A stretch of 24,635 nt of DNA from Spirogloea muscicola (lineage: Eukaryota; Streptophyta; Zygnematophyceae; Spirogloeales; Spirogloeaceae), in assembly GCA_009602725.1 (NCBI GenBank), contig WELB01000218.1:143752-168386 (forward strand), written 5' to 3'. The notes beneath the pieces are model-generated. The model was not told where the DNA came from. It ran no database searches and was given only the letters and a program-made list of their open reading frames with translations. The position numbers were made by a program, and so were the translations under genes. Positions 350 through 24,635 of the stretch are shown in pieces; the stretch's first letter is position 1, and each line of letters starts with the position of its first letter.

Positions 350-890
350 TGGGAAGCTTTGGGCCTTTGGGAGAAGAAAGTGCTCGCCCATTGAGAATAG
401 GGGCTGGAAAAGCCAGCCCAAAAGAGAATGAACAGAGTACGAGAAGGGGGCCAGGGGAAGCGCTAAGACAAACAAGCACACAGAGAAACAAAGCAGCTAC
501 GAATCACTCAGTAACCTCCGCGAAACAGCCGCAGGTCGGAGATGCTAGGCTCGTGGAAGTGGGTCCCCTGGCCAGAGCCAGAGGCAGCAGCGAGGGCTCT
601 GCCGGCACGAAGGTGCAACGCCCGGGCCATAGACCTCTGCAGCGAGACGGCCAGGCGCATTCGATACACTTGCGCCAGCAACCCGGCTGCAGGAAAGTCT
701 ACCGGCTTTCCATGGAAGCGACGGGCGGTGGTGTGCCGGGCGAGCTGGGTGAGCAGCTCGAGCCACCGAGCGCCCAGCGCCCCATGGGTGTCAATTGCCA
801 ATGGGAAGAATTCGTCTTCCCGCGGGTCTGCATACTTCCAGCTCTTTCTGGCCTTTGGGGCCAGAAAGCCGCCCTCTAGTTCTACTGATT
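350..890 (-). mobile_element. 5'-truncated LINE, C-terminal end of ORF2 plus 3' tail
   Basis: This is a fragment of a non-LTR retrotransposon. The open frame runs on the minus strand from about 890 to a TGA at 508-510. It contains the late endonuclease-like signature KSWKYADP, then FFPLAIDTHGALG, then the tail motif MRLAVSLQRSMARALH-RAGRALAAASG, and ends SISDLRLFRGGY-stop. The KYAD...FFPLAI-T-G-LG pattern is the usual end of the restriction-like domain of algal and invertebrate LINE ORFs. After the stop, the 3' tail continues to about 350 and contains the GGGCTGG-CTTTT-CCAGCCC stem-loop (401-419). The same 3' tail recurs at 11842-11995 (+) and 13510-13636 (-). No reverse transcriptase is left, so it cannot be autonomous. 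The long plus-strand open frame at 298-879 is only its complement. Confidence 0.8.
401..419 (-). other. LINE 3'-tail stem-loop
   Basis: Minus strand GGGCTGG-CTTTT-CCAGCCC, a 7-bp perfect stem. Other copies: 10990-11009, 11052-11070, 11931-11949, 12164-12182, 13140-13158 (all +), 13537-13555 and 16396-16415 (-). Stem pair 6 is G-C, A-T, C-G or G-T in different copies. Confidence 0.75.
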
Positions 891-1360
891 TGCACCTTGC
901 TAACTAGAAGAAAACACGCCTAAAGTGTGAAAGCTTTATAGCACACAGTAGATCAAGTAGGCACGTGGAGGTTAGTGAGACCATGGATAAGAGCCCTTCC
1001 AAATAATGCAGTGCATTGCAGGCAATGGCTTCAATCCCTTGCTTTCTTGTCATTGAGTTTATCCAAGCTGGCAATACGACTCAGTGATAAGACCTACTTA
1101 TTGAACTGTGACATAAGGGAGTGACGGAATGCCCTGGCTTGGCCTGCCCAGTTCTTGATCTTAGTAAACACAATTTTATTTTGGAAAGGCAGCATACATT
1201 GACATGAGGGTGGACAGAGAGATGCTTGCTTCTTTGAACAAAAAATCACACAACCGAGCACCCACCGACTACATGCAACACCAGTCCTCTAGCACTTTGG
1301 TGGAAGGCGGCTGTGCTTGCCACGATGTAAACACGACAGGCTCAGTCAGCTTTCAAGGCT
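891..1360. other. Intergenic, no gene seen
   Basis: Mixed AT-richer sequence between the LINE tail and the 3' end of the glutathione S-transferase gene. I see no conserved frame, RNA gene or repeat here. It must include the 3' UTR and polyadenylation site of the minus-strand transferase gene, but no clear signal was found. Confidence 0.4.
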
Positions 1361-2717: not shown

Positions 2718-5700
2718 CTATGAAGTGGTGAAGCCTACCTCACCCAGCATACTTGAAGCAGAAACTGCTGATGCCGAGATAGCAGCAGGGGAAATAGAAC
2801 CGCCTGCTGCTCCATTTGGCAGACTTGAAGGTACACCCTCGGCACCCACAACTGAACCACTAGGCACAACAGCTGGCTTGCCTTTCTTTGCTTTTGCCTC
2901 TTTGGTGGCAGACGGGAGGTTGACAAATGGAATGAATTCAATGCCCATCATGAATGGCTGCAGAACGGATGGGACTCTAACTCCGTCTTCTGACTGGAAA
3001 TTTTCCAAGATGCAGCAGACTGTCCGCTCTGTTGCAGTGAGCGTGGAATTCAACAGATGGACGTACTGCTTTGCCTGGTCATTCATCTGCGAGCACGGCC
3101 ATGTGAAAAGACTGATCCATCTTGAGCTGCTTCCTTCCAAGAGCTTGCTTATCGTGTTGCAGGTGTTGCATGAGGAACTTAATCATTGAGAACTTGCTCA
3201 CTACGAAGGACACTGCATGGACTATCATCCACAACACAGAAAATACTGCGAAGCCCTCTCTAGGATCAGAAGGTACAGTATAAGAATCAGGGCTCCTCTA
3301 AGGCCTGCAATCAAAGTATCACCTTCTTGTTGCCGTATCGAATTTCCAGATTCCGAGCCTGGTAGTCTGTGCAATTGGAACAGGACACAAGCTCCCTGAA
3401 TGTTTGAGAAGCAGGGAACCAGGCCTCTAGATCATACTTCTTTGCAGCTGCATCATTCAATGCACCAGAAACAATAGCCACAACTCTGTACGGAAGCCCA
3501 ATCTGCATGTCAACAGAGCCGTATCATTCAAAGCTGCAGGGAAGTAAAGCAAGCTCTTACACAAGTACAAGAGTTCCTGCTCTCCTGAGCGTAAGCGAAA
3601 TTGAGGATGCCTTAATCCCAGCGACAAGGGAGATGAGAGCAGAGGTGATTTCACATGCATAATGGAAGTGATACCTCTTGATAGAATTCCTCAGAATTCT
3701 TCAACAGCTCCTCATGCATGTCCCATGACTCTGTGCCACCTGGACTTACAATACAGAACTGCTCGACCTTTTCAAATTGATGAACTCTAAATATTCCCAA
3801 TGTGTCACGCCCATGGCTACCAGCCTCCTTCCTGAAGCACGTGGAGTACCCTGCGTACCTGCAGGTGAGGCTGCTGAGATTACTTTCTCAGCAGTTTGCA
3901 GGGCACCCAGAAATCAACTGCCCTCACATGCAGAATGGGCTTTGCCACCACCACGCTATACATGACCAATCGACAAGTCACAAGCAAGCCCTGCACAATT
4001 GTGTGTACCTGAGAGGGAGTGACTTTGGGTCCAACCACTCGCCCTTGTGAAAGGCACAGAGTGGCTGCTCAGAGGTGGCAATTAGATATTTGTCATCTCC
4101 CTCGCCAGACACCTGCAGAAGAGGTTCCAGGTCTGCTGTGAGTGATTGCTTGATAGGCTCAGGCATAGTGTCAGGCTAATGTCGGTCAGGACAGCTGATA
4201 GTCATTAAGTTTTATTGTCGCCACACAACAAGCCACCAGCTGCATGCAGCTGCAGCTACATTCAATTTATCCTCTTCCAAACGAATAGTCCTTCTATTCA
4301 ACAAATGGACACACCTTGTAGAGCTCTTCATCAAATTGCGCCAGCTGGGCACATGCTGCCATGGTTTCCTTTCGCATGAAAAATGGAGTCTGCAAAGGAG
4401 TGTAGCCTCTCTTCACAAGAAAAGACAGGCCAAAACTGATGAGGGCCTGATTTAGTAACACGCCCAGCCCTTTTAGGTAGTATCCTCGCCCTCCTGCTGT
4501 AGCTGTGCCTGCAACACACCCACAAGCTGTAAGAGAAGCACGACTCAAGCACGGCCACAATCAACAATCAAGTGGCAAACTTGGGTGAAGACAACTATAA
4601 GTTCAGGCTCTTTGTAGAGAACAGGACAAGCATGGCTGTCCTGCTGTGGCAACAGAGGAGAAGACTGTGCAGACCTCTGTCCACATCTGCTATATCCAAG
4701 TACTCGATAAGGTCCACATGATTGTACTTTGCACTAGCAGCAGGCTCACCCCATGTCCTTGTGACAAGATTATTGGCCTGTTACGAGGTGCAGCAAGCTC
4801 AGTCGCCAAAACAGGACAAGGCACTTGTGAGCACAACTGATTTGCAGCAGGTACAATATAATCCTCAATCTGCAGATTGAAAGTTATAATTCCAAGCTGG
4901 TGGAAACTTGCACAATGACTGTCAGGGGACAAACTGGCAATGTGCACTTAAAGGAGACCATTGCTACACACACGCGTTCACAATTCTGTTCTTCAATGAC
5001 CAAAGTAGTCCTTCACAAAAGCAACATAAGCATTGATTGGGGCTCTCAAAAAGTTTGTGGTGACAGTAAGGTGGACGTATGATATGGTTTGCTTAAGAGT
5101 ACCTCGTCATTGTCTATGGGAACACTGTCATGTACAAGATTGCCAATTGTGGACAACTGTTGGTCCACTGCTGCTCTTCTCTCCTCCACTTGGAGCTCCA
5201 ACTTCTTGATATCTTCGTCGATAGCCTTGCCTTGAGCAATGAGCTCGGAGGCATCTTCTTTTGCCTGAAACATGTTAAGTGTTTGACAAGCTGCTCAGCC
5301 AGAAGCACACAATCACCAAAACCTGAAAGTTGTATCTATGATGTAAATATGTGTTGGTGGACAGAATGCTGTCATTTGCTTTCTCAGTCTTTAACAGGTC
5401 CACAGAGGCGCTCCATTGACTCCATCTGCTCTCGCCTGCCTTTGTGCTTTGCTGCTTGAGTAGGAACAATGGGAGATTTGAGACGCTTATGAACAATTTG
5501 CTCACTATTTTCTTCTTGGCGACCTCTTTGTTGTTCTTGTTGAAGTCCTTCCTCTTCTGGTCAAGTTGATACTGGCCTGCGCGAGAGCCAACCAGCAAGT
5601 CAGCTTCACACTGGGGCAGCTTGATGCTGCCACACTTGGCAAATGCAGCGTCAGAATCTCTGACGCTGCGCTGCCGGCGGTGGCATCTACGCTCGACTGC

Positions 5701-6458: not shown

Positions 6459-8103
6459 ATGAGCAGCGTGACAGTCGTGAAAGTCGCTACACAGGAGGAG
6501 GTGCGTTTGCGCTTGCTGGAAGCCAGATTTGTATGGCCGCCGTGCTGATCGTCAGCTGCTGCTTCGATCCAGCTCATTTCCGGTAGCGCTTAGGACTCAT
6601 TCGTCAGCTGCCTTGTCGCCGGCAGGCTGAATACCCCGGACATCCTTTGATTGTTCCTATGAAGCCAGGACCCAGTCGCATAGCTTCGGCAATGCTCATG
6701 TTGCAGTGGCCGTGAGACGTACTAATCACGTCATATACCGTCCTATCCGCTGTTGACTGCAGTTCGAACAGTATATGCAGATCCGGAATGACGTATTTGT
6801 GATTGGTCAGGGAGTTCCAGAAGGTTGGGGTGCCAACTTTTAGCACTCCCTTGAACTTTCATCATAAAATGTATGAAGCTCGCGCTGCTGCTTTGAGTAC
6901 CTGATTCATTCTTAAATATCCTCAGAAGCTCTCACATTTACTTACCGCCTGCAGGTGGTTGGCACGTCTTCCCCTCATTAGCCTCATTGGCTGGTCATTA
7001 CCTTCACACTGTTAGGAGATGCCCCTTCATGATGTCTTGTGTAGCAGCCTCATGAAGGCAAGAGATAGAAAACCTGATCTCCTCGTGGTGATAGTGTTAC
7101 TAACATGTTTGTGCTTGATCCTTCTCCAGAAAGAAAGCGGCTGCTGATATGAAAGAATCGGCTGTGAAATGCCAGCCAGATGCATACAGGTGTTCATGAC
7201 GGAGCCAAAGGCTAGGCAGACAGGGCGCCCTCAATACCCCCGTGTCAGCAGTAGGAAGTCAGATGAGCTGAGGGGAGGAAGAGCAACCCCGCTGCGCAAG
7301 CCAGAGGCTGCTGCAAGGGCGCGACCAGCGCGGCGGTGCAAAGCAAGCGCTTGGGAGCGCTGCAGGGACATAGACAGTCGCATACGGTAGCAGGACACCA
7401 GACCCAGAAGAGGAAGTTGACGAGTTTGACGGAGGAGGCCAGGTGAATGAAGCAACAAAACGAGCTGCTCATTTCTTGGCTTTCGTGAATGGTGGTCCAG
7501 CCGGCACAGGTGTGCTGCATCTGGTGCAGCTGACTTCCACGTGCTTGCAGAATCAGCTTACTTTGTGACTGGCAAAAGGCTGATGTGTTTCAGAGGCAAA
7601 AGCTGCCGCCAAGTACATGGCAAGGACTTTGTCAAAACCGCCACTGGTAGATTGTAGCAATTCGAAGTCCACACAGAGCATAAGTAACTCACAAGGGCAG
7701 TTTCCTGTTCTAACGTCTACAGGTAGGCTCCTGACTTACAAGGCGCCAGGTGAGCTCGCCAAGGTCGGGCGCATTGCCACTTTAATGAGGTTTCGACGCC
7801 AGGGGGTTGCGAGGGCCATAATGCTTGGCATTCATGTAAGCTGTACCTTTCCAATATGCTATAACACTGCCTTACAAGTAGGAATGGCAGGACAAAGGAT
7901 GTGCTCAGCTAATGGCACTGGCCATCTCTCATAGTGGCTTCTTTCTCCAGGAAGAGGCACGTCAGTTGGCCTATACCGGTTGCTACCTAGGAGCACAGCT
8001 GGATGCTTGCAACTTGTATTTGTCCCTGGGCTATACCTTTCAATCAGAAGAGGTGTTTCTGGATGCTGGAATCAAGCACCGCTGGATGGGATTGAGATTC
8101 TGA
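6459..8103 (+). CDS. GNAT-family N-acetyltransferase, five exons
   Basis: Acyl-CoA-dependent N-acyltransferase of the GNAT fold; the substrate cannot be told from sequence. Exons: 6459-6530, 6781-6823, 7402-7509, 7723-7835, 7951-8103, all with GT-AG introns and a continuous frame (489 nt, 162 aa). The N-terminus reads VVKVATQEEVRLRLLEARF, then IRNDVFVIGQGVPE, then DPEEEVDEFD, the usual first strand-helix block of the YjcF/ElaA-like group. The acetyl-CoA pyrophosphate loop is R99-R-Q-G-V-A104 after VGRIATLMRF. The C-terminus YLGAQLDACNLYLSLGYTF...AGIKHRWMGL is typical of the family. Intron 2 (6824-7401) contains a LINE tail whose 5' end nearly touches the acceptor of exon 3. The gene is divergent from SerRS. 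The start ATG (GGCGCGATGA context) gives a normal family N-terminus. Confidence 0.92.
7231..7396 (-). mobile_element. LINE ORF2 tail inside a GNAT intron
   Basis: The minus-strand frame reads CYRMRLSMSLQRSQALALH then RAGRALAAASG and ends SSDFLLLTRGY-stop at 7231, the same C-terminal pattern as the other LINE tails in this window. It lies antisense within intron 2 of the acetyltransferase gene, its 5' end within about 10 bases of the 3' splice site at 7401. Its 3' tail downstream of 7231 does not clearly show the shared stem-loop, so it may belong to another subfamily. Confidence 0.7.
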
Positions 8104-10939: not shown

Positions 10940-11180
10940 TTCCTTCGTGCTTCCCCTGGCCCCTTCTCGCACTTTGTTCATTATTTTTTGGGCTGGCCTT
11001 TCCCAGCCCCTATCCTCTTCTTTGGCTTTGGATTTCTTGTCCTTCTTTCTTGGGCTCGCTTTGCGAGTCCCGCGAGTCCTACTTCTCTATAAGCGAGCCC
11101 TTCTCTATGGGCGCGCCCTTCTTCTTGTGCCAAAAGCCCAGCCCGAAGAAGGAGTTGACCAGGTCCGAAGGGCCCAAAAA
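10940..11180 (+). mobile_element. LINE 3'-tail fragments with two stem-loops
   Basis: The segment CTTCCCCTGGCCCCTTCTCGC leads into the stem-loop GGGCTGGCCTTTCCCAGCCC (10990-11009), the same order as in the 3' tails at 350-480, 11880-11960 and 13510-13600. A second stem-loop, GGGCTCGC-TTT-GCGAGTCC (11052-11070), follows. No coding part is attached. Confidence 0.6.
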
Positions 11181-11214
11181 TGGCTGAAAGCTCAGCAGAA
11201 AGCTCAAATTACGC

Positions 11215-11396
11215 CCAGCCGCCCAGCCGTTACAAGCGATGGCTGTGACGAAACACTCGCTGCAGCCTCTGGCTTTCGCCAGGGGGATAATTTGCCGGCA
11301 GCTTGTTTTTCGGATTTGAGGCTCCTCACTCGTAGTTACTGAGCGGTCCATCCTCCACCCGTTCTGACATAAGCGCTTTAGGCCAATCCCCACGTT
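11215..11396 (+). mobile_element. LINE ORF2 tail, subfamily with Ser-Tyr end
   Basis: The frame reads ETLAAASGFRQGDNLPAACF then SDLRLLTRSY-stop (TGA 11340-11342). The following tail, GAGCGGTCC...CCCGTTCTGACATA, matches the tail after 12081, so these two are one subfamily. The tail is cut at 11396 by the start of the next LINE copy. The 196-residue open frame that includes it is a chance fusion of repeat pieces. Confidence 0.6.
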
Positions 11397-11794
11397 CCCG
11401 CAGTGACCACCTCCTCCCGGCCGCAATCGACACTTTTGGCTGCTTGGGTCCTCGCTTCCACCATACCCTACTTGAGATTTAGCGAGTCTGGGATATGCAC
11501 GACTCGAGGATATGCTTCCAGCCCAGATGGGTATGCCAGCAGCCTATCTGTCATTTTTGCGACGTAGAGTGTCAGCTTGTCTGCGGCGACTCAGGCTCAT
11601 GCGTTGCATCAGGAAGCTGGTCGAGCGTTAGCTGGTAGTTCAAGAGCTTGTCGATTGCCGTCCCGTATTCGAGCATCAGTTAGCGACCTCTATGTGCTGA
11701 TTCGTGGTTACTGAGCGGGTCAGCTAAAAAGCCAGTGACGTACATTGGTCAATGTGCTTGCCTTTGTACTTGGCCACACATGGCCTCCCCCTCT

Positions 11795-12000
11795 TAAGAT
11801 GAACGCATTTCTGATCTGCGGCTGCTTAGCAGGGGTCACTGAGTGATTCGTAGCTGCTTTGTTGCTCTTTGTGCTTGTTTTCCTTAGCGCTTCCCCTGGC
11901 CTCCTTCTCGCGCTTTGTTCATTCTTTTTTGGGCTGGCTTTTCCAGCCCCTATCCTCAATGGGCGAGCACTTTCTTCCTCTCCCAGCCACCAGTTGATGT
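11795..12000 (+). mobile_element. Nested LINE tail with stem-loop
   Basis: RISDLRLLSRGH-stop (TGA 11840-11842) is followed by GATTCGTAGCTGCTTTG...CTTAGCGCTTCCCCTGGCC and the stem-loop at 11931-11949. It is almost the same 3' tail as those at 350-510 (-) and 13510-13638 (-). It sits inside the insertion that splits the left LINE copy. Confidence 0.7.
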
Positions 12001-12300
12001 GGCCGCGCTTCCTTTCGTCAGGGGGATAGTTTCCCGGCAGCTAGTCTATCGAATTTGAGGCTCCTCACTCGGAAGCACTGAGTGGTCCTCCCCCGTTCTG
12101 ACATAGCATCTTCAGGCCCCTTCGTAGCTGCTTAGCGCTTTAGGCCCTTGTTCATTTTATTTTGGGCTGGCTTTTCCAGCCCCTATTCTCAATGCGCGAG
12201 CACTTTCTTCTTTTTCCAGCCCCTATCCTCAATGGGCGAGCAATTTTCTTTAGGCCCCTCCGTCATTTGGCCCCTTCGAACCTTAATGAACAATTTTCGG
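12001..12300 (+). mobile_element. Nested LINE tail and further tail pieces
   Basis: Reads SFRQGDSFPAASL then SNLRLLTRKH-stop (TGA 12079-12081), the closest relative of the copy ending at 11342. The tail after it contains the stem-loop at 12164-12182 and partial repeats of CCAGCCCCTATCCTCAATGG near 12216-12240, so the tail unit is partly duplicated. Confidence 0.6.
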
Positions 12301-12479
12301 GCTGGCTTCTCACAGCCCTTGCCCCCATTGGAAAGAGCCAATTCTTATTCTTTGCCCTATTTGGCTCCACCCTCCACCCTCGATTCCAAGGCCAGTGTCG
12401 CCTGGGACCGCAATTCCCTCACCTATTCAACTTCACCTGCCGCTAGCCTGGCCGGTACCAGCCATCACTCGTCAAGGTG

Positions 12480-12700
12480 GGTCACACCCATTGAAGCGGG
12501 GTTCTGGGTTCTTCGACTTCTCTTTGGCTCTTCATCAACGTGCAGGGCGTGCTCTAAGTCAGGCCTCCGGCTTTCGTGGCGGCGCTCCAGCTCCCCAAGT
12601 TAGCTTGTCAGATTTGTTTGTGCTCACCCGTGGGTACTAATGTCATCTTAGGTACCTTAGATTAGGTCTCCGTATTATGTAGCATTGTTTAGTCTGCACT
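12480..12700 (+). mobile_element. Nested LINE ORF2 tail
   Basis: FFDFSLALHQRAGRALSQAS is followed by GFRGGAPAPQ and SLSDLFVLTRGY-stop (stop 12638-12640). It has the best-preserved tail motif of the plus-strand copies. Downstream sequence differs from the other copies up to the 70-bp core repeat at 12702. Confidence 0.65.
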
Positions 12701-12701
12701 C

Positions 12702-12774
12702 GACTCTGCCTGAACAATGTATTGGCTAGAATTGGCCTCCCTTTCAATTCATGCGCCCCGCGCGCCTTCTCTCT
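12702..12774 (+). repeat. Dispersed ~70-bp core repeat, copy 1
   Basis: GACTCTGCCTGAACAATGT then GAATTGGCCTCC and CATGCGCCCCGCGCGCCTTC. Two further copies lie on the minus strand (13955-14018 and 16318-16387). Confidence 0.75.
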
Positions 12775-13114
12775 CTTCTAGCTTTTTTTGAGCGGGTTCG
12801 GACGGTAGGATGCTCCGCCGATGCCAGATCCACGGCTCAGCGGCGTATACGCATCGTTCTTTGACCAGAGCTGAGCTGGAGGTGCCGTCTTCTTGCTCCT
12901 CCTGTCTTACGTGTGACTGCTAGATGGCGTGCCTCAGTTGTCCACGTGTGCAGCCACCTCACATGCCTTGTCAGATCATATCAATCAGCCATCCACGGGA
13001 TGTTTCACGACAGCCTTGCCAATTCAGCCGCTCAAGGATGGGCAATGTAGTTAGTTGTACGTGCGCTCTGACCGCCCGACGTGCCCGACTCCGGCTGTTT
13101 CTTTCCATGAGCCT

Positions 13115-13224
13115 TCAGCCCTTTTTGGCCATTCTTTTTGGGCTAGCTTTGCTAGCTCCTCTTCTCTTTGGGCGAGCACTTTCTCCTTTTTGGCCCCTTC
13201 GGACCTTGTCAGCGGCTTTCTAAC
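13115..13224 (+). mobile_element. LINE 3'-tail fragment with variant stem-loop
   Basis: Holds the stem-loop GGGCTAGC-TTT-GCTAGCTC (13140-13158), then TTTGGGCGAGCACTTTCTCC and GGCCCCTTCGGACCTTGTC, as in other tail pieces. It directly abuts the inverted GC-rich unit. Confidence 0.55.
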
Positions 13225-13764
13225 AACCCTCGCCCCCGTCGGCTGACCTTACTTCTTCCAGAGCCCCAGTAGCGTGGAGAGCGTGCGGGCCCGGCGAAGA
13301 GGGCGTGCGAGACATCCGCGGCACGGGTCGTACTAATGATTATGACGTCACTGGGTCCCAGAAGCCAGTAGCGGAGGAGCGTGGCGGCCGGCGCAAAATG
13401 CGGAGTGCAAGATGCGAGAGAATCTCTTCGGCCGGTTGCGGGTACCGCCCGCAAAGCTCGTGGCGACACCTGCTCCGCACCACGCTATCCCCCGCCGGGC
13501 CGCCATAACGAGCAAGTGCTCGCCCATTGAGAATAGGGGCTAGAAAAGCCAGCCCAAAGAAGAAGCAACGAAGGACGAGAAGGGGGGCCAGGGGAAGCGC
13601 TAAGGAAAACAAGCACAGAGAAACAAAGCAGCTACTCAGTAACCCCTGCTAAGCAGCCTCAGGTCAGATACGCTAGGCTCCTGGAAGTGGGTCCCCTGGC
13701 CATAAAAGGCCCACTCGAGCTCTCCGGAGAGCCCACTCCTTCGCTCCCGCCCTCGCGCTCCCAC

Positions 13765-13954: not shown

Positions 13955-14018
13955 AGAGAGAAGGCGCGCGGGGCGCATGAAATGAAGTGGAGGCCAATTC
14001 AAGCCGACACATTGTTCA
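13955..14018 (-). repeat. 64-bp core repeat inserted in the right LINE tail, copy 2
   Basis: Absent from the same place in the left LINE copy. It is flanked by GGCGATT (13948-13954) and GGCGGTT (14019-14025), which look like a slightly diverged 7-bp target-site duplication; the empty site in the left copy has a single GGCGGTC. Confidence 0.7.
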
Positions 14019-15366
14019 GGCGGTTAGAGCGCACGTACTCCTACATGGCCCATCCTTGAGCGGCTAAACAGGCAAGGCTGGCATGAAACATCCCGTGGAT
14101 GGCCGATTGATATGATCTGACAAGGCATGTGAGGAGGCTGCACACGTGGTCAACTGAGGCACGTCATCTAGCAGTCACACGTAAGACGGAGCAAGAAGAC
14201 GGCACCTCCAGCTCAGCTCCGTTCGAAGACAAATGCGTATACGCCGCTGAGCCGTGAATCTGGCATCGGCGGCAGACCGATGTAAGCACATTGACCAATG
14301 TACGTCACCGGCTTTTAAGCTGACCCGCTCAGTAACCACGAGTCAGCACATAGAGGTCGCTAACTGATGCTCGAATACCGGACTGCAATCGACAAGCTCT
14401 TGAACTACCAGCTAACGCTCGACCAGCTTTCTGATGCAACGCATGAGCCTGAGCTCGCTGCAGACAAGCTGACACTACGTCGCAAAAATGACAGATAGGC
14501 TGCCGGCATACCCATCTGGGCTGGGAGCATATCCTCGCGTCGTGCATATCCCAGACTCGCTAGTTCTCAAGTAGGATATGGAAGCGAGGACCCAAGCAGC
14601 CGAAAGTGTCGACTGCGGCCGGGAGGAGGTGATCGCTGCGGGGGTAGCCATAGTGGTGTCGGAGCTTTCTATGCTCAGCACCTCCCACTGCGTGGCCAGC
14701 AATGTGTGTGGAAGCGGAACTCTTGTATGCCTCGGTCACCACCACATCCACCAAGGCTCGTGTGCCTTCGCCGGGTTGTACACCAACAATGTCCAGGGTG
14801 CGACGGTGATGGCGACCCTGGGAATCCGTGGTGATGGGCATTACATTGCTACTTCCACAATGGCGCGGTAGCCGGCGTCGCGCATCAAGCCCGCCAGGGC
14901 GTCCCGTAGGAGATTGTGGACGCCCAACACCTCAGGCCCTGTGGGACACCGCAGCATATGGGTGGCTAGGTCTCCGCCCTCCGCACGGAAGCCACACTCA
15001 CACTGAGTTACTCCAATCAGGCAGGTCGGGGGCAGGCCCAGGACCAGCTGGAGAAGCGTCCGGAATGCTTCAGGGCTGATTCTGAAAGTGTTGTGGATTG
15101 CGTGTGAGGTGAGCCAATCCGTTGCCCCAGGCGTTGGGAGCGATGTGAGACGTGCCAGACTCCTTGGATTGGTCTCAATTTCCGGCATCGTCCTCAACGC
15201 CTTGCGACGCTCGTCCTCAACTGCAGCAACGAGTCTGGCTTGTGCCGCTTTGTCTGGTGCTTGAGCAAGCGCCGAGAAGGGGGTGAGGAGGGGTTGAAGG
15301 GAGGGGAAGGAGCAGAGTGCTGACTCCCGGATGCTCCTCAATTGCACTTGGAATGCCAAGGAGCCT

Positions 15367-15414
15367 TCCTCCACCTCGGCTGCAGGGCCATCCTCCACCT
15401 CGGCTGCAGGGCCA
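15367..15414. repeat. 24-bp tandem duplication inside LINE ORF
   Basis: Two perfect adjacent copies of a 24-bp unit starting TCCTCCACCTCGGCTGC, adding eight residues in frame. Confidence 0.9.
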
Positions 15415-15747
15415 GCCAGGCATGGGAAGCGCGAGGGAAGAAGGGAGGCAACCTGGTGCCGGCGACCGAGAAAGGCTGCCTGCGCCGTCTGTTGAAGTGA
15501 CCGGCAGCTCCTGCCGCCCATTCGTGTGGGAAGGGATGCCTGCAGGGAGGATGAAGGTGAGGGGAAGGATGGGTGTTGAAACAGGGAAGCCAGCGTTTGC
15601 AGGAGGGAGGTGTCAAACTCCTTGTACAGCCCGCCCACCATGTCCGTTGGGGCGAGTATCCATTGCAGGTAGCCCGCTCGTTGACCAATGCAGCGAGTAA
15701 GGATGGCCAGCGCCAGCTGCCGATCTCCGAGGAGAGGAAGGGAGGGA

Positions 15748-16317: not shown

Positions 16318-16420
16318 AAGAAGGCGCGTGGGGCGCATGAAACGAAATGGAGGCCAATTCAAGCCGACACATTGTTCAGGCAGAGTCTAGGATAGGGGCT
16401 GGGAAAGGCCAGCCCAAAAG
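16318..16420 (-). repeat. Core repeat copy 3 joined to a LINE stem-loop
   Basis: The minus strand reads stem-loop GGGCTGGCCTTTCCCAGCCC (16396-16415), CTATCCTAGACTC, then TGCCTGAACAATGTGTCGGC and the rest of the 70-bp core to 16318. This copy suggests that the core lies downstream of the stem-loop in one tail subfamily. Confidence 0.65.
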
Positions 16421-20396: not shown

Positions 20397-21713
20397 TCAA
20401 AGTGCACCCACCTTCCTTGCCAGGCTCTTGACGTCAGAGTGCCGTATACCCAACTCAGCATGCTTGGCCTCCAGCGCGATGCTCGCTTCCAGTACGACGC
20501 TCAACTCCTCAAGCGCCTTCCGCAAACGCCCGTCGCCAGTTATCAAGGAGCCAAGGCGCAGAAAGAGACGTCTAGAGCACGCATTCCAGTGGCCTAGTTC
20601 CTCGGCTTGCATCTGCAGAATACCTGGGGTGATGCTTTCTTCCTCCACAATGCTTTCCTGACCCTGCAACGACTTCTGCAGAGCCTCATATAGGTACTGC
20701 GTCTCCGCATGCCTGCTGCCGAGAACCTGCTCTGCAATGGAGATGCTCTCTCGCAGCAGCGGCTCTGCCTCTTCAAAGCGCTGTTGCTCAAAGTAGAGCT
20801 CTGCAAGCTTTGCCAGAGTGTGAGCCAGCTGGAGGTCGTCGCCTGGCGAGGTCGCGGTTGGAGCGCTTCGCCGGACACGCAGTGCCGACCTGAGTAGCTG
20901 TTCTGCCTGGGTCCACCGTCCCTCGCCAATGCGCATGAGCAGGTCGGCATAGTCGAGGTATGTGATTGCCGTCCAGCTGTGCTCGCCCCCAAGCTTCGCC
21001 CCACGAATGTCTACAACCTGGCAGAACAGGTCCTCTGCTTTGCCAAAGCAGGCCGGTCCAAGCAGCTTGAGCACGTTGGCAAGGCCCTCAAGCACAAACG
21101 TGGTTACCGGGTGGCCCGCACCATTGTCGTCCTCTGAGATGAGTCGTGCTTGGCGGCCCTTGCTCTCGGCCTCGACCAGCCGCCCCTGTGATGCCAACGA
21201 GGCGGCCAGCGTGGTGAGGTAGACTGCAGTCTTTGGCCTGCGCGAGAAGCGCGAGCTGCGCCACTCCCAAGGGTTGGCCAGGAGGATGGCCAGGATCTCG
21301 CCTGCACACGTCCCTGCCTCCTTATGGCGGCCAACCGGCTCCAGCACAATCGCCAGGCGACTCGACGGTGTGGCGCAATACGACCGGCTTGATCTCGACG
21401 AAGGTGCCTGTCGAATGCAAAGCGAATCCAGGGCCAGGTCCTCTGCCTCGCTGTGCTTCCCTTGATCGTGGCAGAGCTCAGCGAGCAGGTTAAGCGTTGT
21501 GGCCACCAGGCTGTGCTGCTTGCCGAAGCGGAGCTGGCGGAATTTCAGTGCCTCACGGCATGCTTCCGCCGCTTCAACGTATTTGCCATTGCCGCGCAGG
21601 TGGCTGGCAAGCATCATCATGGACTGGCAGACGAGCTGCGTGGGCTTCTCAGTAGACTGCAGCTTGCCCCGCAGCTTCAGTGCACGGCGGCTCAGCTGCC
21701 ACGCTTCCTTGTA
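20397..21713 (-). other. TPR array segment
   Basis: About 438 codons downstream of the in-frame TGA, in the same frame. At least six kinesin-light-chain-like TPRs are visible, for example YKEAWQLSRRALKLRGKL, GKYVEAAEACREALKFRQ, GKHSEAEDLALDSLCIRQ, GRLVEAESKGRQARLI, RWTQAEQLLRSALRVR and RFEEAEPLLRESISIAEQ. Such repeats usually bind protein ligands. The segment has no other lesion. Confidence 0.85.
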
Positions 21714-22399
21714 TCATCCGATCACATGCAATACCTCCGACCTCCGTTCGAACACAGATGCGCAGACAGCTGGAAATGCCTGCAAGCGGTGCTCAGCGGT
21801 CCAGGCCAGGCGGTCGGCCAGGTGCAGCGCATCTCCAAATCGCCAGAGCACGAAGCCAAGGTGGTGTACCAGACGCAAAGCAGGGCCCTCCACAAAACGT
21901 GCCAGCAGGTCCTCAGAGAGTGCAAGCACAGGCTCTTGAGAGTGGCTGCCCAGAGCAGCATGGATGGCATGGTGGCAGTGCTCAGGGTGCGTGTCCACGC
22001 AGACGAAGGAGGTACAGAGGCTAGCCACTATGGCTGTGCTGGCCTTGGTGCCACCATTAGCCTTGCCGTATTCTTGCACAAGGAGGTGGAAGATGAGGTA
22101 GCTGTCGCACTTGGCGCGCCTCGCCATGCCATAGTGTACAAGCAGCTGCACAGCCTTGTCCACTGCAGCTGGCTTCTGCCGGTCCACCGTGGCCTCAAAT
22201 CGACTCTGGGGTCTACCTTGCCCTTGCCGGCTTGCCTCCTTTGCTTCCACCTCCTCCGCCAATCTTGTCCTGAACTTCTGAGGGGCCAAGGACTTGCTAC
22301 GATCACCGTCGCCCTTCGTGGCCCCCTCTTGTTGTCTCGGTCCATCCTGGACTCTGTGCGAATCTGGCGGCGCAGTGGGCTGCAGAGTCCGCAGGATGC

Positions 22400-23290
22400 T
22401 TGGGAGCAGGGCGGCAGCCTGAGCCAACAGGGGTACTGGGATGGGCACACCAGCAAACCAGCCTGCAGCATGTGCCATGTCGACAGCAAGCTCCCTGTGC
22501 ACGGGGGCAAAGTTCTCATCGCACTGCAGTAGCTCGACGCTCCTGTCGAAGAGGCGCACCAGGTCAGGGTGCGTCCGGAAGTCGGGGTCTCCGGGCTCGG
22601 CAGAGAAGGTTTTCGAGCCTTCGGCTTGTAGTCTTCGCAGGAGGCGTGAAGGCAGCATGGCGCCATGAGCAAGCTGCCGCCGGCAGAATGCCAGGCTGAT
22701 TGTCAGGTAGCCCAACCTGCCAGCAAGGTCCTCTGCAGCCTGCAGCTCCTCACCGCCCAACTCCTCGTGGCCGAGCAGCAGCGCCATGGCGTCACTTTGG
22801 ACCAGCATGTCGAGCGGGAGTTCTGCGAAGTTGGAAACTCCACTCAGACGAGTCGTGATGAGGATGCGGCAGGCTTCGCCAGTGGGCAGCACCTCCACCA
22901 ACACGGCATAATTGTGCTCCAGGTCGTGCAGGACCAGCAGCGTGGGCCCACCGTCGGCCTCAAGTGCGCGCCCTACAGCTTCCACATTCCGCTTCTCTGT
23001 GTCACAGCCTGGCAATGGCGGCTGCAGACAGAGGCCCACCGTCTGCCATATGTGCTGCTCCCTCTTCCTCCGTTCCTTGCGCCAGCTCGACGCCTAGAGG
23101 CTTCATGAGGCCGAGGAAGGCAGCCGCAAGCCTGGACCCAGAAGCATCCAGCCAAAGAATGCGCGAGTAGCCGCGGCGGTGCTGGTGCACGTATTCAAGC
23201 GCAAGCTGCGTCTTGCACATTCCGCCGAGGCCGCATATGGCCCCGCGCGGCCATGGCGTGCCAGCAGCTCGTGCAGCGACTCCAGCTGCG
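22400..23290 (-). other. NB-ARC NTPase segment
   Basis: FVGHTPQLESLHELLARHG precedes the P-loop ICGLGGMCKTQLALEYVHQ. RILWLDASGSRLAAAFLGL follows, Walker B-like GPTLLVLHDLEH (His where Asp or Asn is usual), CRILITTRLSGVSNF as sensor/RNBS-B and GRLGYLTISLAF at the GLPL position. The degenerate P-loop and Walker B would both weaken nucleotide binding. Confidence 0.8.
23009..23039 (-). other. Candidate 31-nt intron
   Basis: GTGGGCC...GCCAG on the minus strand. Its removal joins MADG to CDTEKRNV in frame, matching SDG-CDAEKRHV across the 144-nt intron of the relic (17865-18008). Confidence 0.5.
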
Positions 23291-23514
23291 GCGTGTGGCC
23301 GACGAACTCGACGTTCCGTAGGAAGGGCGTGGTGTCGATGGTGGTGGGCGTGGGCGGCGGCCGGCAGAGGCACTCACACGCGGAGTGCACGGCCTCGTCG
23401 ATGCACAGGTCCCAGTTGCCTCCAAGGTCGCTCAGCTTGTCCATTGTGACTGCAGCCACCCTGGCGACGTCGCGCAGCCGGGCCGCCTCGTCGCTGCCGT
23501 AGCACTCCACAACA

Positions 23515-23944
23515 GGCCGCCGTCGCAGCCGGGCTCGCTCCACACGCCCCGCCATGCTATGATGCGCTCGCCATCCACATTGCTTGCTCGAAGACCCACA
23601 AGGATCGGCAGCACGCAGCTCCGGTCGAGGAACACCTCCAGCTCCCGCATGCAACCACCGCTTGCGAAGAAGCTGCGCGACAGCACGACGATGCCCTAGC
23701 GCGCAGAGTACAAGGCGGACCGCATCACGGCGGGAGCGTCGTCGCCGGGCTCCAGCGACCACTGGTCGAAGAAGACGACCAGGTGCTGCTGGCGCAGCTC
23801 GCGCGCCAGGAACGTGCAGAAGTCGCGTTTGGTGTCCGGCCCGCGGTGGCACAAGAACACGTCATACAGCTGCTGGGGCGCCCCGCGCGACCGTGGCGAC
23901 GGCTTCCACGGCTTTGAGTGCCGGCCATGGCCTCTCACAGTCAA
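23515..23944 (-). other. TIR domain segment
   Basis: QQLYDVFLCHRGPDTKRDFC begins the TIR fold (YDVFLSxRG-DT pattern). FFDQWSLEPGDD follows, then SALYSAR-stop-GIVVLSRSFF and a GCMRELEVFLDR block. The glutamate of MREL is where TIR NADases keep their catalytic residue, so the site is present although a TAG interrupts the frame upstream of it. LPILVGL closes the recognisable domain. Confidence 0.85.

Positions 23945-24635
<691 letters not shown>

Follow-up and report, generated by a model that had tools for sequence, protein, structure and literature searches.

The tail hairpin and its LINE copies in the window

We analyzed a 24,635-nucleotide (nt) stretch of the Spirogloea muscicola genome (bases 143752-168386 of contig WELB01000218.1; hereafter, the window), which carries several copies of a long interspersed nuclear element (LINE), together with the whole genome of 153,112,186 bases on 471 contigs. 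The feature under study is a short hairpin that a sequence-only reading had reported eight times here; all eight copies are present at the places given, and the hairpin does belong to LINE 3' tails, the copies being often 5'-truncated and nested. The tail hairpins and the LINE end that accompanies the first of them are as follows:

401-419, minus strand: tail hairpin GGGCTGG-CTTTT-CCAGCCC, in a tail match at 374-435, 91 nt past the LINE C-terminus at 511-900
511-900, minus strand: C-terminus of a 5'-truncated LINE open reading frame (ORF), ending ..SISDLRLFRGGY*; identity to the intact LINE, 83%
7156-7177, minus strand: diverged tail hairpin (GGCTGG..CAGCC) belonging to a different LINE family and lying 56 nt past its C-terminus (end at 7234)
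10990-11009, plus strand: tail hairpin GGGCTGGCCTTTCCCAGCCC, in a tail match at 10974-11018
11052-11070, plus strand: tail hairpin with C-G at stem pair 6; the best fold of this tail is another helix
11931-11949, plus strand: tail hairpin of a LINE copy, in a tail match at 11915-11976
12164-12182, plus strand: tail hairpin in an apparent very short insertion beginning at 12148
12299-12318, plus strand: second tail type GGGCTGGCTTCTCACAGCCC, with a 6-bp stem and an 8-nt loop
13140-13158, plus strand: tail hairpin whose pair 6 is A-T, in a tail match at 13125-13184
13537-13555, minus strand: tail hairpin whose pair 6 is G-T, 83 nt past a LINE C-terminus ending at 13639
16396-16415, minus strand: additional, less similar tail hairpin GGGCTGGCCTTTCCCAGCCC

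A 19-nt hairpin pattern matched the window seven times, compared with a mean of 0.53 and a maximum of 3 in 100 shuffles. These matches comprised six of the eight hairpins and one poor match at 23531, the hairpins at 10990 and 12299 falling outside the pattern because their loop lengths differ. The pair-6 bases had been read correctly, with 13537 taken on the minus strand. Proximity to a LINE stop codon held for only part of the set: the hairpins at 401, 12164, and 13537 lie 83-91 nt past a C-terminus, whereas no LINE C-terminus was found within 400 nt of those at 10990, 11052, and 13140. For the hairpin at 11931, a truncated C-terminus was recognized by eye about 91 nt before it, the computed search giving only another one 219 nt off, and the hairpin at 12299 lies 226 nt from a LINE C-terminus.

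The hairpin recurs in the 3' tails of several LINE families

Loci fetched through either their tail or their LINE C-terminus were compared for tail anatomy. In the main families, the ORF stop is followed by a short 3' untranslated region (UTR), the hairpin GGGCTGG-loop-CCAGCCC about 80-100 nt downstream, and, after a spacer of about 8 nt, AATGGGCGAGC, with the motif GGGCGAGC at this position 3' of the hairpin. Most young copies end in CTTTCTTC without poly(A) and then run into differing flanks. Intact elements carrying the hairpin near a defined 3' end, which the sequence-only reading had proposed to look for, do exist.

Genome-wide, the exact 7-bp stem closing a 5-nt loop (GGGCTGGNNNNNCCAGCCC) occurs at 7,321 sites, counted for one strand since the pattern is palindromic, and its reversed control at 0. 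Exact hairpins with a CTTTN loop number 3,757, of which 2,275 have an exact GGGCGAGC 6-16 nt later. Sites were listed individually for 100 members of each class (100 of 7,321, 100 of 3,757, and 100 of 2,275, as well as 100 of 471 G-nonC and 100 of 108 nonG sites in the pair-6 analysis below). Among the 100 listed GGGCTGGNNNNNCCAGCCC sites, the loops, read on either strand, were CTTTT, CTTTG, CTTTC, CTTGT, CTGTT, TTGTT, TTATT, and others. Many LINE copies are young and near-identical, and copies are spread over many contigs.

A LINE C-terminus lay at most 400 nt upstream in 110 of 200 tail-like sites collected. Because this set had been gathered by the hairpin, the count was repeated from C-termini alone, scoring a GGCTG…CAGCC core with at most 1 mismatch within 230 nt past the ORF. 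The core was found in 28/29 copies of the query family and 39/54 incidental copies, while reversed arms of equal composition were found in 0/29 and 2/54, respectively. By this count, several LINE families share the tail hairpin. Thirty-five of the 39 incidental hairpins lie 56-123 nt past the ORF; the other 4, plus 2 of opposite-strand appearance among the 35, may come from neighboring elements because the pattern is palindromic. Among the 64 of 150 tails lacking a LINE C-terminus within 260 nt, no body of a short interspersed nuclear element (SINE) with this tail stood out by eye. Thirty RVT_1 loci (L009-L038) were set aside, the 10 examined being long terminal repeat (LTR)-type elements.

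The element encodes an R2-like protein

The LINE has one ORF, in which Pfam RVT_1 identified a reverse transcriptase (RT) domain of non-LTR type (7.9e-16, one copy) and whose relatives in the PDB are R2 proteins. The predicted fold of the C-terminal domain best matches the R2 restriction-like endonuclease (RLE); a 619-aa model with a predicted local distance difference test score (pLDDT) of 39.6 was too poor and remained unused. Two candidate N-terminal C2H2 zinc-finger motifs were recognized by eye, Pfam giving only E 0.086-0.36 in one stretch, and a CCHC-like motif is also present. The apurinic-like endonuclease family was absent among the 5 Pfam hits up to E 1 in one copy. The element is an RLE-type (R2-like in the broad sense) non-LTR retrotransposon. 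It resembles R2, NeSL/Utopia, HERO, CRE, and R4 in having one ORF, candidate N-terminal zinc-finger-like motifs, an RT, a CCHC-like motif, a restriction-like endonuclease fold, and no poly(A); the RLE clades and their structure have been described (PMC4640811).

In contrast to R2 and other RLE elements, the sampled copies are dispersed, very numerous, and not located at a single site. Insertion at the 28S rDNA site, the mark of R2 proper, was not seen among 69 sampled junctions, whose 3' flanks are varied, and copies are scattered over many contigs; site specificity was judged from these junctions and contigs. Scattered, non-site-specific R2-like elements are described in Blattella (PMC7650587); they likewise combine an R2-like protein with dispersal, but in an animal host, and a shared tail hairpin is not mentioned in the available part of that report. 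Dualen and L1 are described in green algae (PMC8226300). None of the papers listed in the literature searched, judged by title and the opening of the abstract, describes the present element, most subscription journals being outside the search's range. This very abundant R2-like LINE group combines young copies that are almost identical with long open frames and a short, defined 3' tail, and in the genome that holds it one could test how R2-like proteins pick their RNA.

Predicted folding and variation of the stem

In F1-type tails, the predicted hairpin is closed by an outer helix, GUUCAUU/AAUGGGC in the best fold, with z scores of -4.0 and -3.85 against shuffles; this helix is 87.8% paired in alignment A3. 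The z scores were -3.26 for the 11931 tail, -1.35 for the 13140 tail, -1.00 for another hairpin-bearing tail, and -0.37 for a hairpin-less kind. The 11052 tail reached -3.92, yet through a different helix, its hairpin being absent from the best fold of 11036-11103.

The sequence-only reading had held that both sides of pair 6 change together and had taken this as compensatory change suggesting that an RNA structure was kept. Concerted change was not borne out genome-wide, where the two sides vary independently. In the window, pair 6 is altered on both sides only in the hairpins at 13140 and 11052. The 11052 relatives (n=9, all non-self matches) have G-C in 8, C-C in 1, and C-G in 0, and 10 relatives of 13140 fetched from 42 non-self matches have A-T in 1 (L080) and G-C in 9; the other A-T row, L099, was fetched because it had previously been listed as A-T. 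In the otherwise exact scaffold, pair 6 is G-C at 3,757 sites, G-nonC at 471 (G-T in 97 of 100 listed), and nonG at 108. The 100 listed nonG sites kept C in 85 and had A-T in 7, C-T in 4, T-T in 3, and A-A in 1, with no C-G or T-A. T was no commoner opposite A (7/58) than opposite C or T (7/42; Fisher p=0.83), and the number of A-T pairs estimated by scaling up from the listed sites (~7.6) is close to the ~6.6 expected by chance. With any loop allowed, both sides of pair 6 were changed at 28 sites (10 A-T, 1 T-A, 0 C-G, and 17 non-Watson-Crick; reversed control, 1).

Tested against a tree-aware null, 126 unique tails (from 167 with E up to 1e-3, 9 dropped) gave no significant result for any of the seven pairs (best p=0.14, pair 6). 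A lack of significant covariation genome-wide, which the sequence-only reading had offered as a refutation, was the outcome at its own pair 6; tests of the remaining pairs covered the tails collected. Permutation across 73 clusters gave a weak signal for covariation in the inner stem (p=0.020) and none for the outer helix (p=0.35), which received no covariation support in any test.

Two further signals appeared to favor covariation. A tree-aware signal at pairs 5 and 3 (E 0.018 and 0.064; 104 tails) was ascribed to one-base misregistration and was gone after sequence registration. In alignment A3, the covariation score was matched by 20/500 shuffles, the number of both-sides-changed cells by 7/500, and that of both-sides-changed pairs by 155/500; this signal came from 4 cells only, of which 3 are A-U pairs at pair 6 (window 13140, L080, and L099), and is biased because L080 and L099 were fetched for closeness to 13140 and for A-T. 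A few decayed copies can mimic covariation that thousands of copies fail to support.

Conservation is mainly of sequence, and covariation therefore neither proves nor excludes an RNA structure here. Because dead copies decay neutrally, these tests speak chiefly about copies, and the low variation in active lineages leaves little power to detect covariation there. In 30 chosen tails, GGCT and one C were invariant and the stem nearly so. Across the 126 tails, substitutions per column were 0-7 in the 5' arm, 4-19 in the 3' arm, and about 25 in the flank, a contrast exaggerated by the use of the hairpin itself to find and register the tails. The G-T form, with a TTTG loop in 91 of 100 listed sites, looks like a subfamily whose wobble pair would be kept in the sense RNA.

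Such sequence conservation would also suit a protein that reads GGCTG and/or CAGCC linearly, the inverted repeat being incidental or serving a dimeric binder. The near-invariant stem, the missing covariation, and the tail types that have no stable fold all agree with linear reading. Both complementary arms are, however, present with at most 1 mismatch in 39/54 incidental ends, F1-type tails are predicted to fold much more stably than shuffled sequence (z -4.0), and the G-T wobble form is abundant among the 471 G-nonC sites (97 of 100 listed), so we regard linear reading as rather improbable.

A candidate recognition hairpin for target-primed reverse transcription

We lean, with modest confidence, toward reading the hairpin, the conserved core of the tail in one large R2-like LINE clade, as a 3' recognition element that is conserved in sequence and serves target-primed reverse transcription. 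The element's own protein would bind the tail RNA, the bound tail would let the protein choose its template, and target-primed reverse transcription would begin at the CUUUCUUC end, on a T-rich target that has been nicked. The stem sequence is probably recognized as well as its shape, which would explain why the stem hardly varies. The position after the ORF, the near-invariant stem, the subfamily-differing loop, the recurrent 3' end, and the T-rich 3' flank were all observed directly. From the earlier proposal of a recognition hairpin, what stands is the location in LINE 3' tails, near a fixed 3' end and in several families, which fits by analogy; covariation drops out of its evidence.

Known systems offer partial parallels. 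The proteins of the stringent-type zebrafish LINEs ZfL2-1 and ZfL2-2 bind and need 3' stem-loops, the loop giving specificity (PMC4176376). The likeness lies in a stem-loop near the 3' end with a loop that differs between subfamilies; ZfL2 belongs to the L2 clade, whereas the present element is RLE-type and has a near-invariant stem and a putative tail-binding step. Compensatory change counts as a supporting rather than a defining trait of stringent-type tails, an invariant stem offering little scope for it. In plants, 3' hairpins of L1 LINEs and SINEs show compensatory stem changes, a conserved loop, and a conserved CGAG on the 3' side (PMC3747384). CGAG also lies 3' of the stem here, inside GGGCGAGC, through coincidence or a shared rule, but L1 is not RLE-type, and its varying stem and conserved loop are the reverse of the fixed stem and variable loop found here.

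Several results weigh against the recognition hairpin. The endonuclease-domain model reached a mean pLDDT of only 68.6, two other tail types, in the windows folded, did not surpass shuffles (z +0.62 and +0.89), and the pair-6 contingency, the double changes, and the tree-aware null give no covariation support for an RNA structure. The hairpin was missing within 230 nt past the ORF in 6/6 copies ending in ..SDLYVLTRGY or close variants; of four GGAPAP-type copies, two had no hairpin and in the other two the sole matches lay 168 and 181 nt past the ORF. The hairpin is common yet not universal, and it is not required by all LINEs of this genome. Near the C-terminus (12 copies measured), identity to the young LINE was 62-68% in hairpin-bearing families and 94% in one of them, 56-57% in the GGAPAP type, and 35-46% in the hairpin-less SDLYVLTRGY group. 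Because the 62-94% families carry the hairpin and the 35-46% group does not, the hairpin tracks one LINE clade, and since its bearers are fairly close, shared descent accounts for part of the conservation.

Taken to its end, shared descent would leave the hairpin with no present function, common only through a recent ancestor or tail exchange. This would suit the many young, near-identical copies, the hairpin-less state of the distant group, and the inflated stem-versus-flank contrast. Families at 62-68% identity nevertheless retain the core although their 3' UTRs otherwise vary in both length and sequence, and the C-terminus-anchored count found copies independently of the hairpin; we therefore consider a hairpin without function unlikely.

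A mimic of the histone 3' stem-loop, acting in 3' end formation of a non-polyadenylated RNA, was suggested by a stem-loop near a 3' end lacking poly(A), which we take to resemble the histone structure. Four histone-gene 3' flanks (of 20 histone matches) had no hit in Rfam up to E 1, and inspection by eye showed no hairpin of this kind in them; one LINE tail matched only two unrelated Rfam families, far under cut-offs. After these comparisons, the mimic was dropped as highly improbable.

Nested insertions and junctions

Three further features of the window bear on how the tails became crowded:

12138-12147, plus strand: left copy of the 10-bp direct repeat CTTTAGGCCC
12211-12247, plus strand: 3' half of a tail, beginning in the hairpin loop, directly behind a complete tail
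12248-12257, plus strand: right copy of the 10-bp direct repeat CTTTAGGCCC

The segment 12148-12247 thus consists of a complete tail and a half tail between the two CTTTAGGCCC copies, and the repeat may be read as a target-site duplication flanking inserted tails. The crowding of tails in 10985-13560 comes at least partly from nested insertions. In L059 (minus strand), a young LINE copy occupies the loop of a tail hairpin older than itself, with 4-8 bp (at least TTTT) duplicated, and reads as a true insertion into the older loop. Insertion into the loop and half tails that start there could reflect a preference for TTTT targets or stalling at the hairpin.

At 43 exact-ended tails, T directly follows CTTTCTTC in 81% and stands at the second position in 63%, with TT in 23/43; these T's are either a target preference or nucleotides added by the enzyme. 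The 3' flank begins in another tail in 22/69 junctions versus 20/128 control flanks taken 300-600 nt away, an excess that arises in regions already dense in LINE pieces. By script, 43/142 3'-half motifs had no 5' arm; by eye, 7 of the 43 are half-hairpins that begin at the loop or close to it, and most of the rest are sequence that is unrelated or lies upstream. Among 5'-half motifs, 7/83 had no 3' arm.

Tentatively, the tail could act as a code, with a fixed GGCUG/CAGCC stem and a family-specific loop, through which several R2-like LINE families share one another's machinery or compete for it. T-rich stretches within or beside the hairpins of old copies would then be preferred landing sites for new ones as well, hence the self-nesting; we hold this whole scheme to be a doubtful extension of the recognition hairpin.

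At L056 (1912-2050) and L071 (~433), neighboring LINE copies lie tail-to-tail and head-to-head, almost gapless, possibly from paired priming at one break.

Other features of the window

One more LINE lies among the hairpin-bearing copies:

14332-15740, minus strand: LINE of a more distant family, protein 35-39% identical, with GGCTG..CAGCC absent within 230 nt past the ORF

A repeated end, ..GAATTGGCCTCC..TTTCATGCGCCCCGCGCGCCTTCTC, occurs at 12690-12775, 13955-14021, and 16319-16390, and may be the 3' end of hairpin-less LINE families. On the minus strand, 20397-24046 holds fragments of genes in which a TIR domain (23696-24046) and TPR repeats (20397-21710) occur, in an arrangement like that of immune receptors. 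A run of 124 A's occupies the window edge (24512-24635).
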